Part shown: positions 12,042-18,833 of the stretch, one piece after another
Position numbering within the stretch: the stretch's first letter is position 1
Layout: every line of letters starts with the position of its first letter
Source: Fimbriimonadaceae bacterium
GTDB lineage: Bacteria > Armatimonadota > Fimbriimonadia > Fimbriimonadales > Fimbriimonadaceae
Assembly: GCA_026129685.1 (NCBI GenBank)
Contig: JAHCHO010000005.1
Coordinates: 310,001-374,000, forward strand
Direction of reading: 5' to 3'
Length of the DNA stretch: 64,000 nucleotides
Notes under the pieces: generated by a model
Database searches by the model: none
Told to the model about the DNA's origin: nothing
What the model saw: the letters and a program-made list of their open reading frames with translations, nothing else
Program-made: the position numbers and the translations under genes

Positions 12042-14879
12042 CTACTTGGCCAGGGCTTCAAGCCTCGCCTTGAGCTCCTGGGTGAGTTCCCCGTACTTCG
12101 CGAAATCGCCCGCGCGGAGGGCCTTGTCCGCGTCTTCCAGCAACTTCGCCGCTTCGCGAACCGCGCTCTTGGGCACGTTTTCGGAACCCGTGTCGGGTGT
12201 CCTTTCGGTCGGCACCGGCGTCGTGTCGCGCACGGGCGGACGCGGCGCGCCGATCAGCTTTGCGAGCGCCTCCTCGTAGCTGTCTCCGACGACCACCTTG
12301 TCGCTGAACGCGAGCACGACCTTCTTCAGTTCGGGAATCGGGGTGATGCCCGCCGAGCGAGACTGAAGGAAGAGCGGCTTGACGTACAAAACGCTCCGAC
12401 CGATCGGGATCACCAGCAGGTTGCCGGGGACGATCTGCGCTTGGTCGTTGTTGAACTGGCGGTTGATGTCCGCGATCTCGCGGTCTTGGTCGAAGATGGA
12501 CTCCATCTGCGCCGGGCCCTGGATGACGGAGCCCTTCGGGAACTTGAACAACACGAGTTGGCCGTAGCGCTCGGGGTCGCAGTGCGCCGCCAGCCAGCCG
12601 CTCATGTTCGGCTTCTCGCGCGGCGTGAAGGGAAGAATGAGAAGGAAGCTCGGCTTGACCTCGCCGGGCAACTGGATGAGCACCCAGTACGCCTTCATCG
12701 CCTCGCCGCCGCCCGTCAGGCCCCGCTCGAAAGGCATCTCCCAGGCGTCCTCGTTGTTGAGGAACTGGCCGGGGTCGGTCACGTGGTACTGAGTCAGCTG
12801 GACGGACTGCAACATGAACAGGTCTTCCGGGTACCGGAAGTGCTTCTCCAGGCCGGCCGGGATCTGGTCCGCCTCGAGCACGAGGTTCGGGTAGACGCGC
12901 CGCCATGCCCTGAGAACCGGTTCGTTCGGGTCGATCGCGTAGGCGTTGACCTCGCCGGAATAGGCGTCGATCGCAACCTTCACCGAGTTGCGGATGTAGT
13001 TCAGCGACCCGGGAGTGGTGGCCGAATACGGAACGGTGCTGGCCGTCGTGTAACCGTCCAGAATCCAGATCAGTTTGCCCCCGAACACGACGACGTAGGG
13101 GTCCCGGTCGAAGCGTAGGAACGGATAGATCAGCGACGCCCGCTCGATCACGTTCCGCCGATAGAGAATCCGTGAGGTCCCGGTGACGTTCGGCGAGATG
13201 AGGAGGTTCTGGTCGCTGAACAACGATCCGTAGGCGAAGCGGGCGAACGGCGCTCCGAGCGGAACGCCCCGGTGGCCCGTCCAGCGGTAGGTCTTCGTCT
13301 CGTTCTCGGAGGGATAGTCGAACTCGAGTTCCTTGGTATCGACGATGGCGTATTCGTCGTCGAGTTCGCCGTACGCGTCGCGAAAGTCGCTGAAGTACAG
13401 CCGCGGCTGGTCGAGCTTCAGACGCTCGGGGCCGCGCGGAGGCAGGTCCTTGACGAGGAAGCGCGGTCGTCCGGAGGTCTCGGCGCCGTTCACGGGCGTC
13501 ATCACGACCCCCATGCCGTGGGTGTACTGCAGGCGCTGGTTCACCCAGTTGCGGGCGTTGCGATCCAGTCCGTTGATCGCCACGTCGCGCGCACCCAGCA
13601 TCACCATCCGGGTCTGGCCGTCGATCTCGTAGCGATCGATGTCCACGTCGTGGAACGTGTAGTAGCGCCGAAGCCCTTGGAGGCCTTCGATGGACTGCTT
13701 GAGCACGTCCGGGTCCCAAAGCCGCATGTTGTCCAGCGTCGGTTTGGCGCTCGCGACCTCCTGCTCCGTCGGTCGGTCCTGCACGGCGAAAGCGCGCACG
13801 TCCATCTTGTCCAACCCGTAGGCGAAGCGGGTCATCGTGATCGCGCGCTGGGCGAAGGGACCTTCGACGTTGAGGTAGTTCGGGCCGACGTACGTCTTCT
13901 GGACGACCATTGGGATCAGTCCCAGTCCGATCGCGTAGGCGACGACGCACAACCCCGCGCCCACCAGGGTCGGTCGGAACGGATCGATCGGCGACGAGAG
14001 TCGGCCCCGCCGGCGGAACGGACGCGCGACGCGGCCGTTCCAGATCGCCACCAGTCCGAGAAGCGCGACGAGGACCACGAAAACCGTCTGCCCGGTGAGA
14101 CGGACGGTCGCCGCGTACCCTGCGCCCGTGAACTGGCCGTTGTCCACCAACCCATAGCCGTACCGGTCCATCCAGAGCTTCCACGCAACCGCGAAGGCCT
14201 CCAAACCGAACAGCGTCGTGAGGTGCCGGATCGCGGAGCGGCCCAGTTCGATCCGCGCGACCGACGCGAGCGCCTGCATCCCCACGTGCAGAAGCGTCGC
14301 GAGGATCAACGCGAACAGAAGGATTCCCTGGACGTAGTTCGCCATCGCGTCTTGCCAGGGCCAGTCGAACACGTAGAAGCCGATGTCCCGCCCGAAAAGC
14401 GGTTCGGTGACGCCGAACGGCTCGCCGTTCATGCTCAGGGCCAAGGCGCGCCAATTGGCGGAGAACGGAAACGCTTGGACCACCCCGACGACCGTGGCGA
14501 TCAGGACGGCCGTCAGGGTCGCGCGCCGCCCGATCCAGTCGAGCACGTTCGCGACGACCCGCTCGCTCAGCCCGTCCGGGGTCGAGCTGAACACCGGCGT
14601 GCTTGAGAGCGCGAGGCGAACGGTATGGAACAGCAGCGCCCAAGCCGGAACGAAGGCGACGAGGAAGACCAGCAATCGGTTGCGCCATGCGATCTGGAAC
14701 ACCTCCGGTTTCTGGGCGTCGTGGAGGAACCAAAGCCAGTCCGTGTACGGGCGCACGCCCGCCGTCACGAGGGCGAACAATCCGAACACGACCAAGATGG
14801 AGACCATCCAGAAGCCCGGCGCTCGCTTGGGACGCTTGGCTCCGATTGGGCGTCCCAGCGGTTCAAACGGTTCGTCCAT
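12042..14879 (-). CDS. UPF0182 family membrane protein
   Basis: A 945-residue integral membrane protein of the UPF0182 (COG1615) family, found in Actinobacteria, Cyanobacteria, Firmicutes and relatives; function is unknown. The first ~330 residues contain several hydrophobic helices (FWMVSILVVFGLFALVTAGV, LLVFLVAFVPAWALLFHTV, LTAVLIATVVGVVQAFPF and others), followed by a large extracytoplasmic domain with family motifs such as YVGPNYLNVEGPFAQRAI, YTHGMGVVMTPVN and YWVLIQLPGE. The last ~70 residues are a Pro/Thr linker plus a charged helix. ATG 14879 fits the family N-terminus; the frame is open further upstream but that part is antisense to the next gene. CACAAT at 14889-14894 suggests a leaderless start. 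Confidence 0.92.
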   Translation of the reverse strand: MDEPFEPLGRPIGAKRPKRAPGFWMVSILVVFGLFALVTAGVRPYTDWLWFLHDAQKPEVFQIAWRNRLLVFLVAFVPAWALLFHTVRLALSSTPVFSSTPDGLSERVVANVLDWIGRRATLTAVLIATVVGVVQAFPFSANWRALALSMNGEPFGVTEPLFGRDIGFYVFDWPWQDAMANYVQGILLFALILATLLHVGMQALASVARIELGRSAIRHLTTLFGLEAFAVAWKLWMDRYGYGLVDNGQFTGAGYAATVRLTGQTVFVVLVALLGLVAIWNGRVARPFRRRGRLSSPIDPFRPTLVGAGLCVVAYAIGLGLIPMVVQKTYVGPNYLNVEGPFAQRAITMTRFAYGLDKMDVRAFAVQDRPTEQEVASAKPTLDNMRLWDPDVLKQSIEGLQGLRRYYTFHDVDIDRYEIDGQTRMVMLGARDVAINGLDRNARNWVNQRLQYTHGMGVVMTPVNGAETSGRPRFLVKDLPPRGPERLKLDQPRLYFSDFRDAYGELDDEYAIVDTKELEFDYPSENETKTYRWTGHRGVPLGAPFARFAYGSLFSDQNLLISPNVTGTSRILYRRNVIERASLIYPFLRFDRDPYVVVFGGKLIWILDGYTTASTVPYSATTPGSLNYIRNSVKVAIDAYSGEVNAYAIDPNEPVLRAWRRVYPNLVLEADQIPAGLEKHFRYPEDLFMLQSVQLTQYHVTDPGQFLNNEDAWEMPFERGLTGGGEAMKAYWVLIQLPGEVKPSFLLILPFTPREKPNMSGWLAAHCDPERYGQLVLFKFPKGSVIQGPAQMESIFDQDREIADINRQFNNDQAQIVPGNLLVIPIGRSVLYVKPLFLQSRSAGITPIPELKKVVLAFSDKVVVGDSYEEALAKLIGAPRPPVRDTTPVPTERTPDTGSENVPKSAVREAAKLLEDADKALRAGDFAKYGELTQELKARLEALAK

Positions 14880-14888
14880 AGTGGGGTC

Positions 14889-14894
14889 ATTGTG
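14889..14894 (-). promoter_or_regulatory. -10-like box CACAAT, probable leaderless promoter
   Basis: On the minus strand CACAAT ends nine bases before the ATG at 14879. Confidence 0.45.
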
Positions 14895-14947
14895 GCCGAT
14901 CCCCGGGCTTCCGGCCCGGTCCGTCACCATCGGGCGGCTCGGTGGCG

Positions 14948-14953
14948 TATAAG
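14948..14953 (+). promoter_or_regulatory. -10-like box TATAAG, probable leaderless promoter
   Basis: TATAAG ends seven bases before the ATG at 14961. Confidence 0.5.
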
Positions 14954-14960
14954 GGTTAGC

Positions 14961-15545
14961 ATGCGACAACTCGCGGTCCTCGGTCTCCTCGTCCTCGGCG
15001 CGATCGCGTTCGGGCAGTCCGCCAAGCCGTCTCCTTCCGCGAGGCCCACCGATCTCCTGACGGAGGGCGAGATGTGGGCCGTCATGAACCAGGTTGAAAT
15101 GGGCGTGTCGAAGGTGCTCGGTGTGCGACGCCAACTGGTCAAGGTGAAGCTCGAGAACAATGGTCGGAATCCGGCAACCCGCGAGGCGGTGATCGCCAAG
15201 CTCGACAAGCTCTTCGAGATGTCGCGACCGGCCTTCAAGTTCACGCCGCAACCGCAACCGGTGGACGCGAGCGTGCTAAAGGGCACGGCCCCAACCCTCG
15301 CGACGCTGAAGAAGCTGATCGCCTGGGGCGCGATGGCCCCCCGGGGACCCCTCGCGACGGGCGGCGCCACCGTGACGCTCGCGGAGTACGGGGACGCGGT
15401 CGGCTACCTGGTCTCCGCCATCGCGAGCCTCACCCACACCCCAAGCTCCGTCTGGAGTCCTTACCTGATGCCCAACGACCCTGCGGCGGACGAGCGATTC
15501 GACAAGAAGCCCAAGACGACCGGGGGCGGTCGTTCGGGCGGTTGA
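14961..15545 (+). CDS. Small secreted protein, S-layer-homology-like fold possible
   Basis: A 194-residue protein with a signal peptide (MRQLAVLGLLVLGAIAFG, then Q). The middle part, PTLATLKKLIAWGAM ... VTLAEYGDAVGYLVSAIASL, has the rhythm of an SLH-type helix pair, but I cannot assign it with confidence. The tail is charged and Gly-rich. No catalytic motif is seen. The gene lies between a divergent UPF0182 gene and the DnaJ-WD40 gene. Confidence 0.65.
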   Translation: MRQLAVLGLLVLGAIAFGQSAKPSPSARPTDLLTEGEMWAVMNQVEMGVSKVLGVRRQLVKVKLENNGRNPATREAVIAKLDKLFEMSRPAFKFTPQPQPVDASVLKGTAPTLATLKKLIAWGAMAPRGPLATGGATVTLAEYGDAVGYLVSAIASLTHTPSSVWSPYLMPNDPAADERFDKKPKTTGGGRSGG

Positions 15546-15606: not shown

Positions 15607-15612
15607 CATAAT
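15607..15612 (+). promoter_or_regulatory. -10-like box CATAAT upstream of the DnaJ-WD40 gene
   Basis: CATAAT ends seven bases before the TTG start at 15620. A short AGG at 15616-15618 is too close to the start to act as a normal ribosome site. Confidence 0.45.
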
Positions 15613-15619
15613 TCTAGGT

Positions 15620-16777
15620 TTGGCCACGTTTTACGAAATCCTGGGCGTCGAGAAAACGGCGGAACCCACTCAACTGAAGGTTGCCTACCGGCGGCTCGCA
15701 CGTCGCTACCACCCCGACGTGAACCCGGAAGACCCCGACAGCCATGAGCGCATGGCCCGGATCAACGAAGCGTTCACGACGCTCATGGATCCGGTCAGCC
15801 GGATGGAGTACGACGCCACCCTTGGCGCCGGCTTCTTCGATTCGCGAGTCTATGCGCCGCAAGAAGAGACGCCCACGCCGGTGCACGTCCGGCTCAGCCA
15901 CCGGCTGCGTGGGCACCGCACCCCGATCTATGGGGTGTCCTTCGTCCCCGACGCGCCGTTGTTGCTCTCCAGTTCCTTTGACAACGAACTGATCTGGTGG
16001 GACCTCGACGTCCCGGAGATACGCCGACGCCACCGGTTGGAGGGGGGCGTCGTCTCGACGGTTCGCGCCTGTCCCGGCGAGCGCGTGGTCGCCGCCGGTT
16101 CGACCGACGCGATGGTCAGCGTCTGGGAGTTGCGGGGTGAATCCCAGAACGTCTGGCGCGACGCCAACGCCCAGTGGATCGCCTGCCTCGCGATCACCGC
16201 CGACGGACGCGCCGTCGCCCTCGGGTCGGCCCGCAACCAAGTGACCGTCGCCCGTACGGCCGATGGGGTGCCGGTCTTCACGCGCACTCGGCACGAGCAG
16301 TCGGTGACCGCCGTCGCTTGGTCGAACGATGGCCGGTTCCTCGCGACGGGCAGTGCCGACGCGACCGTCAAGCTCTGGCACGGTGCGAACGGCGTCGAAC
16401 TGCACACCTTTCCCCAGATTCGCACGACGGTCACCGCCTTGGCCTTCAGTCCCGATGGCAAGTACCTCGCGGTGGCGGCGGTCGACCTCTCGATTCGCGT
16501 TTTCGACATCGAGGGGCTGAAACTGCACAAGGTGATGTTCGGGCACGAACGGCCCATCGAAACCATGGAGTTCCATCCGAACGGCTGGTTGTTGGCGACG
16601 GGCTCGAGGGACGGCACGATCGGGCTTTGGAACGCCACGAAAGGCATCGAGAACGTACGGATGAACGTCAGCGACCTGCCCATCGCTTGCGTCACTTTCA
16701 GCGGCGACGGCCATCGCTTGGCCGCCTCCGGCCTCGACCGCACCGTGCGGGTGTGGGACCTGACCGTCGGAAGATAG
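15620..16777 (+). CDS. DnaJ domain - WD40 beta-propeller fusion protein
   Basis: A 385-residue cytoplasmic protein. Residues 1-70 are a J-domain (FYEILGVEKTAEPTQLKVAY, with the Hsp70-activating HPD at 31-33). It lacks the Gly/Phe region, zinc centre and C-terminal client domains of DnaJ. From about residue 90 to the end there are seven WD40-type repeats, among them LRGHRTPIYGVSFVPD, SVTAVAWSNDGRFLATGSAD and IACVTFSGDGHRLAASGLD, enough for one complete propeller. The protein probably recruits Hsp70 (DnaK) to clients held by the propeller; the client is unknown. The start is TTG, chosen because it begins the J-domain. J-WD40 fusions are rare. Confidence 0.9.
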   Translation: MATFYEILGVEKTAEPTQLKVAYRRLARRYHPDVNPEDPDSHERMARINEAFTTLMDPVSRMEYDATLGAGFFDSRVYAPQEETPTPVHVRLSHRLRGHRTPIYGVSFVPDAPLLLSSSFDNELIWWDLDVPEIRRRHRLEGGVVSTVRACPGERVVAAGSTDAMVSVWELRGESQNVWRDANAQWIACLAITADGRAVALGSARNQVTVARTADGVPVFTRTRHEQSVTAVAWSNDGRFLATGSADATVKLWHGANGVELHTFPQIRTTVTALAFSPDGKYLAVAAVDLSIRVFDIEGLKLHKVMFGHERPIETMEFHPNGWLLATGSRDGTIGLWNATKGIENVRMNVSDLPIACVTFSGDGHRLAASGLDRTVRVWDLTVGR

Positions 16778-16805
16778 CCGGTCGGCCGACAGGTAATCTC
16801 CGGCC

Positions 16806-18833
16806 ATGCCCAAGCGTCCGATCACGCCCGACGACCTGCTCCGCTTTCACTTCGTGGGCGACCCCCAGATCAGCCCGGACGGGACGCGCGTTCTGTTCGT
16901 GAAAAAGCACGTCGATGCCGCCAAGAACAAGTACGTGTCGCACCTGTACTCGGTGGATCGGGACGGGCGCGCCACCCAATTGACCCAAGGAGCGGGTGGG
17001 GCGGGCAACCCCCGCTGGTCGCCGGACGGCGGCCACGTGGCGTTCCTCAGCGGGCGGGACAAACCGGCCGGGCAAATCTACCTTCTTCCCATGGGGGGAG
17101 GCGAGGCCCGCAAACTCACCGCGTTCCCGGAAGGCTCCGTCGGTTCCATCGCATGGTCGCCGGACGGCGCCAAGATCGCCTGCACCTTCCGGGAACAGCA
17201 CCCCGACTGGACCGAGGCGGCCAAGAAGGAGCGCGAAGCGAAGGGCGCCGGTACCCCGCCCCGGGTGATGGACGACCTCTGGTACCGCCTGGACGGGGAC
17301 GGTTACTTCATGGGGCAACGCCACGCCGTCTACATCGTCGACGTCGCGACCGGCGAGCACCGACTGCTCTACAACGCGAGCGCCCTGGACAGCTACGACT
17401 TCGATTGGTCGCCCGACTCAAAGGAACTCGCGATCATCCATACCGCGAACAAGCGGCCGTTCTCCGACCCGGCGAACGACCAAATCTACCGGGTCGACCT
17501 GGACGGCAAAGCATGGAAGTTGGACGGTCTCCCCAAAGGCGACAAGTCGAACGTCCGCTGGTCGCCGGACGGCAAAACGATCGCCTACCTGGGCAACGTT
17601 GACGAAGAGGACCCGTGGGGTGTCCGGAACACCCGACTCTGGAAGGTGCCGGCGGAAGGTGGCGAGGCGACGTGCCTCACTCCCGAGGACGATGTCTGCC
17701 TCACGACGGGAACGATCAGCGACGCGAAAGAGGTGTCCTATTCCGGCTATCTGCGGTGGGCACCCGATTCCACCAAGCTCTACGTCAACCCGGGCGTGCA
17801 AGGAGGCGTGTGGTTCGGCGACGTCGACGCCAGGCTCGGCGGCATTCGGTGGCTGGTCCAAGGGAACGAATGTTTCGAGGCAGGACCGGTGAGCCGCGAC
17901 GGTCGGGCGGTCGGGATGGTCGTCAGCGATCCGACCCGGCTCGGGGAGATCGCCTGGCTCGATCTGACGGAAGAGCGCCTCGTCCCCGAGCGCCTGACCG
18001 CCTTCAACAAGCCGCTCTTGGATGAATTGAAGCTGAGCGAACCGGAGGAGTTCTGGGTCGAATCCACCGACGGAACCAAGGTCCACACGTGGGTCATGAA
18101 GCCCGTGGACTACCTGGCGCCCAAACGCTATCCGGCGGTCCTCGAGATTCACGGGGGACCTCACACCCAGTACGGGTGGACCTTCTTTCACGAGTTCCAA
18201 GTCCTCGCCGCCCAGGGCTACGTCGTCGTCTACAGCAACCCGCGCGGCTCAAAGGGCTACTCGGAGGCGCACTGTGCGGCGATCAAGGGAGACTGGGGCA
18301 ACAAGGATTGGGACGATGTGCAGGCCGTGACCCGCTTCGCCCAGCACCTGTCCTACGTGCATCCCGGCCAGATGGGCGTCATGGGCGGCAGCTACGGGGG
18401 TTACATGACGAATTGGGTGATCGGCCACACCAAGGACTTTCGGGCGGCGATCACCGACCGTTGCGTCAGCAACATGGTCTCGATGGGCGGCAGCAGCGAC
18501 TTTCCGTTCAACAAGGACGGGTACTTCAAGGGCGTCTGCTGGGGCGACCTGGAAAAGATTCGGGAGTTGTGGCGCCAGTCGCCGCTCGCCTACTTCGAGA
18601 ACGTGACCACCCCGACGCTGATCATCCACAGCGAGGGCGACCTGCGCTGCAACATCGAGCAGAGCGAGCAGGTGTTCACCGCGCTTCAGATGCAGGGGGT
18701 CGAGTCCCGCTTCGTCCGGTACCCGGTCGAGACCTTCCACGGCATGAGCCGCAACGGCCCCCCCGACCTCCGCCTGCATCGCCTGGGCGAAATCTTGCGC
18801 TGGTGGGAGCGGCACCTGAAGACGAGCGCTTAG
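16806..18833 (+). CDS. S9 family prolyl oligopeptidase-type serine peptidase
   Basis: A 675-residue acylaminoacyl-peptidase-like enzyme. The N-terminal half is a WD40-like/TolB-like propeller with repeated SPDG motifs (WSPDGGHVAFLSG, WSPDGAKIACTF). The C-terminal alpha/beta-hydrolase domain holds the nucleophile in MGGSYGGYMTNW (Ser529), with the acid and His expected around EGDLRCNIEQS and ETFHGMSRNG. No signal peptide, so it should act in the cytoplasm on short peptides. It follows the DnaJ-WD40 gene after 28 bases. Confidence 0.95.
   Translation: MPKRPITPDDLLRFHFVGDPQISPDGTRVLFVKKHVDAAKNKYVSHLYSVDRDGRATQLTQGAGGAGNPRWSPDGGHVAFLSGRDKPAGQIYLLPMGGGEARKLTAFPEGSVGSIAWSPDGAKIACTFREQHPDWTEAAKKEREAKGAGTPPRVMDDLWYRLDGDGYFMGQRHAVYIVDVATGEHRLLYNASALDSYDFDWSPDSKELAIIHTANKRPFSDPANDQIYRVDLDGKAWKLDGLPKGDKSNVRWSPDGKTIAYLGNVDEEDPWGVRNTRLWKVPAEGGEATCLTPEDDVCLTTGTISDAKEVSYSGYLRWAPDSTKLYVNPGVQGGVWFGDVDARLGGIRWLVQGNECFEAGPVSRDGRAVGMVVSDPTRLGEIAWLDLTEERLVPERLTAFNKPLLDELKLSEPEEFWVESTDGTKVHTWVMKPVDYLAPKRYPAVLEIHGGPHTQYGWTFFHEFQVLAAQGYVVVYSNPRGSKGYSEAHCAAIKGDWGNKDWDDVQAVTRFAQHLSYVHPGQMGVMGGSYGGYMTNWVIGHTKDFRAAITDRCVSNMVSMGGSSDFPFNKDGYFKGVCWGDLEKIRELWRQSPLAYFENVTTPTLIIHSEGDLRCNIEQSEQVFTALQMQGVESRFVRYPVETFHGMSRNGPPDLRLHRLGEILRWWERHLKTSA

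Follow-up and report, generated by a model that had tools for sequence, protein, structure and literature searches.

A conserved single-copy gene of Fimbriimonadaceae encodes a J-domain fused to a seven-bladed WD40 propeller, a candidate adaptor of DnaK

The stretch of DNA analysed here, 64,000 nucleotides from a Fimbriimonadaceae bacterium (the window), contains on its forward strand a gene, open throughout its frame, whose product of 385 amino acid residues joins a J-domain to a WD40 propeller (J–WD40 protein). A gene for an S9 peptidase (Peptidase_S9, 6.8e-46) follows on the same strand, 28 nucleotides downstream, and a UPF0182 protein of 1071 residues (window 12042–15257, - strand, E 2.3e-229) is encoded upstream on the opposite strand. 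The entire J–WD40 gene is also spanned by an antisense open frame of 403 residues (window 15614–16825, - strand), which a simple ORF caller favoured over the gene, and comparable antisense frames are open in the stretches L037 and L057; we take the antisense frame as a by-product of G+C-rich codons. The features of the locus are the following:

15607..15612, + strand: CATAAT, putative -10 element, 7 nucleotides before the TTG start
15620..16777 (stop codon included), + strand: J-domain–WD40 gene, 385 residues, TTG start
15626..15817, + strand: J-domain, residues 3–66 (Pfam PF00226, 1.2e-20; helices 4–8, 16–30, 41–56 and 58–71)
15710..15718, + strand: HPD motif, residues 31–33, invariant in 36/36 orthologs
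15818..15880, + strand: linker, residues 67–87, of which 71–83 are predicted to be disordered (pLDDT <50)
15881..16768, + strand: closed seven-bladed WD40 propeller, residues 88–383 (28 strands; Z ~37 against WD40 propellers)
15902..16021, + strand: WD40 repeat 1, residues 95–134, with T101, P102, Y104 and F120-D-N122
16028..16150, + strand: WD40 repeat 2, residues 137–177 (conservation analysis)
16151..16276, + strand: WD40 repeat 3, residues 178–219, with the invariant W186
16277..16402, + strand: WD40 repeat 4, residues 220–261 (conservation analysis)
16403..16525, + strand: WD40 repeat 5, residues 262–302, with R268
16526..16654, + strand: WD40 repeat 6, residues 303–345, with E314 and R330
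16655..16774, + strand: WD40 repeat 7, residues 346–385 (conservation analysis)

Pfam recognised the DnaJ family (PF00226) on residues 4–65, with E 1.2e-20 and 73.8 bits against a cut-off of 27.8, and the WD40 family (PF00400) with E 1.9e-48. Together with the AlphaFold model and the fold comparison, these matches bear out the preliminary description of the locus, in which the protein was said to consist of a J-domain with HPD, seven WD40 repeats and nothing else. A sequencing error joining two genes, which the same description had named as the observation that would overturn it, is excluded, because in 91 of the 94 ortholog-bearing genomes the fusion lies in a single open frame. Fusion of two genes by chance or in assembly is likewise refuted, and we consider it practically out of the question, as separate genomes hold 91 full or near-full fused orthologs and three partial ones (G001, G052 and G050, in frames of 276–318 residues). 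We also rejected an assignment to a defence system: the PADLOC model HEAT-ARM_XIII matched in part (61.1 bits) and on WD40 residues only, its best stretch covering model positions 53–240 of 1972.

The AlphaFold model, built with an alignment of 43 sequences (mean pLDDT 92.3, pTM 0.78), shows the four helices of the J-domain followed, from residue 88 to residue 383, by 28 strands arranged as seven blades of four. Since strand 88–97 lies ahead of the first repeat, the model provides the 'velcro' closure required of a WD40 domain, the N-terminal strand that closes the last blade, as described for Sqt1 (PMC4491177). The possibility that too few blades would be present to close the propeller is thus answered by the predicted model, in which seven four-stranded blades form a closed ring. 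In VIA-align comparisons, which covered Foldseek's best 1000 chains, 283–299 residues were superposed on solved WD40 propellers with Z ~37 in the top rows, among them WDR61 (3ow8; Z 37.4, 287 residues, rmsd 2.1), Thermomonospora PkwA (5yzv; Z 37.3, 283 residues, 27% identity) and the designed seven-bladed propeller 7big. By prediction and fold comparison, therefore, the seven-bladed architecture of the modelled propeller and its closure are established. Most rows of the fold search span residues 82–382, so that the evidence for the fold of the J-domain comes from sequence matches, the closest solved J-domains including DNAJA3, DnaJ2 and E. coli DnaJ. Residues 71–83 form a low-confidence linker in the model, with pLDDT below 50, and mean conservation falls to 0.40 over residues 67–92, against 0.75 in the J-domain and 0.65 in the propeller.

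The HPD signature is intact: H31, P32 and D33 are invariant in the 36 aligned orthologs, which suggests a working J-domain and not a relic, and so are Tyr23 and Arg24 in helix II. Position 20 is Lys or Arg in 35/36 orthologs, position 35 is Asn in 28/36 and Ser in the other 8, and position 25 (R25) is variable, with Arg or Lys in 30/36. Positions 20, 23–24, the HPD motif and position 35 match those that contact DnaK in E. coli DnaJ. By the PF00226 match above its curated cut-off and by HPD in 36/36 orthologs, the protein belongs to the J-domain proteins (Hsp40). It falls far short of the equivalog model of class A DnaJ (TIGR02349, 75 bits against a cut-off of 377.2, on model positions 2–72 of 354) and of that of class B, the CbpA type (NF007618, 49.2 bits against 403, on positions 5–67 of 306). 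Class C proteins are defined as having only the J-domain in common with DnaJ (PMC8215388), and the J–WD40 protein is of the class C type, because the chain beyond its J-domain is WD40.

A second group of conserved residues lies on one face of the propeller. F120-D121-N122, W186 and E314 are invariant in 36/36 orthologs, and Y104 and R330 are kept in 35/36; T101 and R268 are fixed in the 29 rows of the own family, which is not the case in the seven sister-family rows, where R268 is kept in two, so that the site differs between families. F120-D-N122, W186, E314, Y104, R330 and R268 occupy canonical ligand positions of WD40 domains and are conserved there. In the strands of the AlphaFold model, the conserved residues of this face lie at the beginning of strand a or in the loops d–a and b–c, which by WD40 convention make up the top face. 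Mean conservation is 0.73 in the top-face loops versus 0.55 in the bottom loops (P 0.0016, in a comparison made without a control WD40 family), a contrast that is partly a general property or constraint of the WD40 fold.

We searched the window protein against 113 genomes of the class (threshold E 1e-35) and found an ortholog in 94, with one match each. In the own family, Fimbriimonadaceae (Armatimonadota; assigned by contig titles and not by a marker tree), 85/85 genomes have a single collinear ortholog, and retention in the clade is near-universal: of the other families, two in the same order are positive in 8/8 (f5) and 1/1 (f4) genomes, and two are negative, with the ortholog in 0/18 (f2) and 0/1 (f3) genomes. 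Two family genomes of 1.5 Mb retain the gene as well, and this presence in one copy throughout the family, the small genomes included, marks it as part of the single-copy core of the clade. A second search, with a profile of 36 rows over 291 genomes of the phylum, separated the same 94 genomes, which score at least 300 bits, from the rest; the next-best matches reach at most 180 bits and start at position 95 or later, that is, they are WD40 only. The J–WD40 ortholog was not found in the 197 remaining searched genomes of the phylum (0/197), and a tally of 113/291 genomes at 1e-45 takes in 19 with WD40-only matches. The closest named ortholog, on a contig titled Chthonomonas sp. UBA2387, is 70% identical over the whole protein (69.5% by tblastn), and the contigs of the orthologs are mostly titled Fimbriimonadaceae or Armatimonadetes. 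A search of GTDB contigs with an ortholog-specific propeller pattern returned 57 loci, of which 43 are ortholog matches, 42 of them with HPD and the remaining one (L100) starting at a contig end; the other 14 are WD40 proteins without HPD in their first 80 residues (Planctomycetota, Poribacteria, Leptolyngbya and other titles). J–WD40 fusions that arose independently would escape such a pattern, and we therefore do not claim that the architecture is absent elsewhere. One of the 43 ortholog loci, L114, carries an archaeon title and is taken for a mislabelled MAG.

Along their length, the sister-family proteins share 34–36% identity with the window protein, and each of their seven propellers aligns collinearly to the family profile as a single domain (240–285 bits). 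The best single domain among the 14 WD40 proteins without a J-domain reaches 117 bits against this profile; by whole-protein score, some repetitive members of that set rank above the sister-family propellers. Identity and collinear fit together indicate that the fusion most likely arose before these families split. By itself the J-domain fails to show a single origin, because the J–WD40 set does not form one clade in a tree (68 columns) that places 36 J–WD40 proteins beside 18 other J-domains, with viral rows from every second locus (15/29); the set requires two changes there, and a single origin is seen in 19% of bootstrap trees. Distances in the J-domain and in the propeller are correlated (r 0.79 over 36 rows and 0.49 over the 29 family rows, Mantel P 0.0005), as any vertically inherited pair would be. 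J-domains with 36–47% identity to residues 1–75 occur on 29 viral contigs (L070–L098); a horizontal or viral origin was rejected, as these loci match residues 1–75 at most and have no propeller.

The putative -10 element is also shared within the family. We compared 57 distinct upstream rows of the own family, in which the start was the script-chosen start codon nearest to the aligned first residue, and found an exact CATAAT within 30 nucleotides upstream in 34 (about 0.002 expected per row), 33 of these boxes lying 7–14 nucleotides before the start; the 23 rows without it include near variants such as TATAAT. A Shine-Dalgarno-like 4-mer is present in 8/57 rows, and the start codons are TTG in 39, GTG in 16 and ATG in 2. 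A CATAAT so near to the start points to an mRNA that is probably leaderless, or almost so, and has a conserved non-ATG start codon. The neighbours of the J–WD40 gene vary among the genomes of the own family, a pattern that fits transcription from a promoter of its own.

The genome that carries the window has six J-domain matches, four of them above the cut-off and the J–WD40 protein included. A class A DnaJ with zinc-finger cysteines and a class B DnaJ (classes assigned by eye) are encoded elsewhere in it, and since these ordinary forms are present, the J–WD40 protein is an extra J-protein. DnaK is represented by one full-length match, in a frame of 633 residues, and by two further HSP70-family matches that are short (~100 positions) and weak. 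Another unusual J-protein of the same genome (L003, contig C1; 378 residues), also among the four above the cut-off, has, by eye, apparent TPR-like repeats and several membrane segments, Pfam recognising DnaJ alone.

J-proteins determine the targets of Hsp70, and we consider it probable, with moderate confidence, that the J–WD40 protein is a dedicated DnaK adaptor of the class C type. The top face of the propeller would bind one client or a short segment that the client exposes, while the J-domain, on a flexible tether of ~20 residues, would contact DnaK through helix II and HPD and trigger ATP hydrolysis, loading DnaK onto the client held by the propeller. The preliminary description had likewise proposed that the protein is a dedicated Hsp70 co-chaperone carrying a client-recognition platform of its own; the invariant HPD and Y23–R24, the tether, the rigid propeller and its conserved face fit this proposal, in which we infer the DnaK contact from the J-domain motif. 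The top face is presumably the client site, and a single physiological client seems plausible.

The protein could instead be a scaffold subunit of a larger machine, with a J-domain that functions during assembly or has a mostly structural part. Scaffolding is a classic role of WD40 propellers, single-copy retention in 85/85 family genomes would suit a core complex, and the solved matches include RSP16/DNAJB13 of the radial spoke and mL77, J-proteins that are built-in subunits of their complexes (the name mL77 being used for mitoribosome subunits). An HPD invariant in 36/36 orthologs, a linker predicted to be flexible and the lack of a conserved gene neighbour speak against such a role, which we regard as rather unlikely. 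Still less credible, in our opinion, is that the J-domain recruits DnaK to fold its own propeller, whose function would then be unrelated: both domains share one chain and WD40 propellers can require chaperones for folding, but the other WD40 proteins of the same genomes, which match from residue 95 or later, do without a J-domain, and the joint retention of HPD and the propeller face would be left unexplained.

The gene neighbourhood bears on a further proposal, that the protein serves protein turnover by bringing substrates to the downstream S9 peptidase; the short same-strand spacing in the window speaks for it. We sought ten window neighbours in the surroundings of 33 orthologs (29 stretches of 19 kb and four of 8.8–15 kb), and the only one recovered was the S9 peptidase, once (L047, 58% identity), ~5 kb away and on the opposite strand; the homolog is absent from the same-genus stretch L037. 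The two genes, presented earlier as possible partners, are thus not a conserved pair, and an S9 adaptor is very improbable. None of the 33 ortholog stretches showed a conserved neighbour pointing to a client. Weak leads are given by a phosphomannomutase family in 7/33 ortholog stretches and, in the two sister families, by an HD-domain gene directly downstream in 4/7 stretches (L062, L064, L065 and L066) and by Der (EngA) directly upstream, on the same strand, in 4/7 (L061, L063, L064 and L065; in L066 the upstream sequence is too short for a judgement). Der is a ribosome-assembly GTPase. In its boldest form, to which we give little credence, the preferred reading of a DnaK adaptor would place the protein beside the dedicated chaperones of the WD-repeat kind in eukaryotes, as their bacterial equivalent throughout the clade, possibly essential and coupled directly to Hsp70: the propeller would capture one nascent core protein, perhaps, given Der in the sister families, a component of the ribosome or of translation, and the J-domain would load DnaK onto it.

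To our knowledge, few bacterial J-proteins have a known single client, and the J–WD40 protein, being compact, soluble and single-copy and having a definable binding face, offers a tractable case for finding a dedicated client of Hsp70. The WD40 propeller is typically a eukaryotic hub; here it is found as a single-copy core gene of a bacterial order. Barriot et al. 2020 are said to have analysed J-protein domains in prokaryotes. In our literature search we recognised no paper describing the fusion of a J-domain and WD40 in a clade-core protein, a result that does not establish its absence from print.

Among known systems, PkwA has the same propeller fold (Z 37.3, 27% identity) and is titled a serine/threonine kinase, whereas the partner domain of the J–WD40 propeller is a J-domain, in a single-copy gene of a clade. 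In Cyanobacteria, WD40 genes with DnaJ-domain neighbours have been reported, an association of neighbouring genes in contrast to the one fused protein described here (PMC5587647). The bacterial class C J-proteins HscB, DjlA, DjlB and DjlC resemble the J–WD40 protein in combining a J-domain with HPD and a domain unlike those of DnaJ, which is expected to give specificity; what sets the J–WD40 protein apart is an extra domain in the form of a complete, soluble WD40 propeller, and the word WD40 does not occur in the review (PMC8215388). Yeast Sqt1 and Rrb1 are WD-repeat dedicated chaperones of ribosomal proteins. Sqt1 is eight-bladed and, in the accessible part of the source, is described without mention of a J-domain, and the likeness stands only at the level of the WD40 fold: they too have a WD40 propeller, which holds a short segment of its client on the top face before assembly (PMC4491177).
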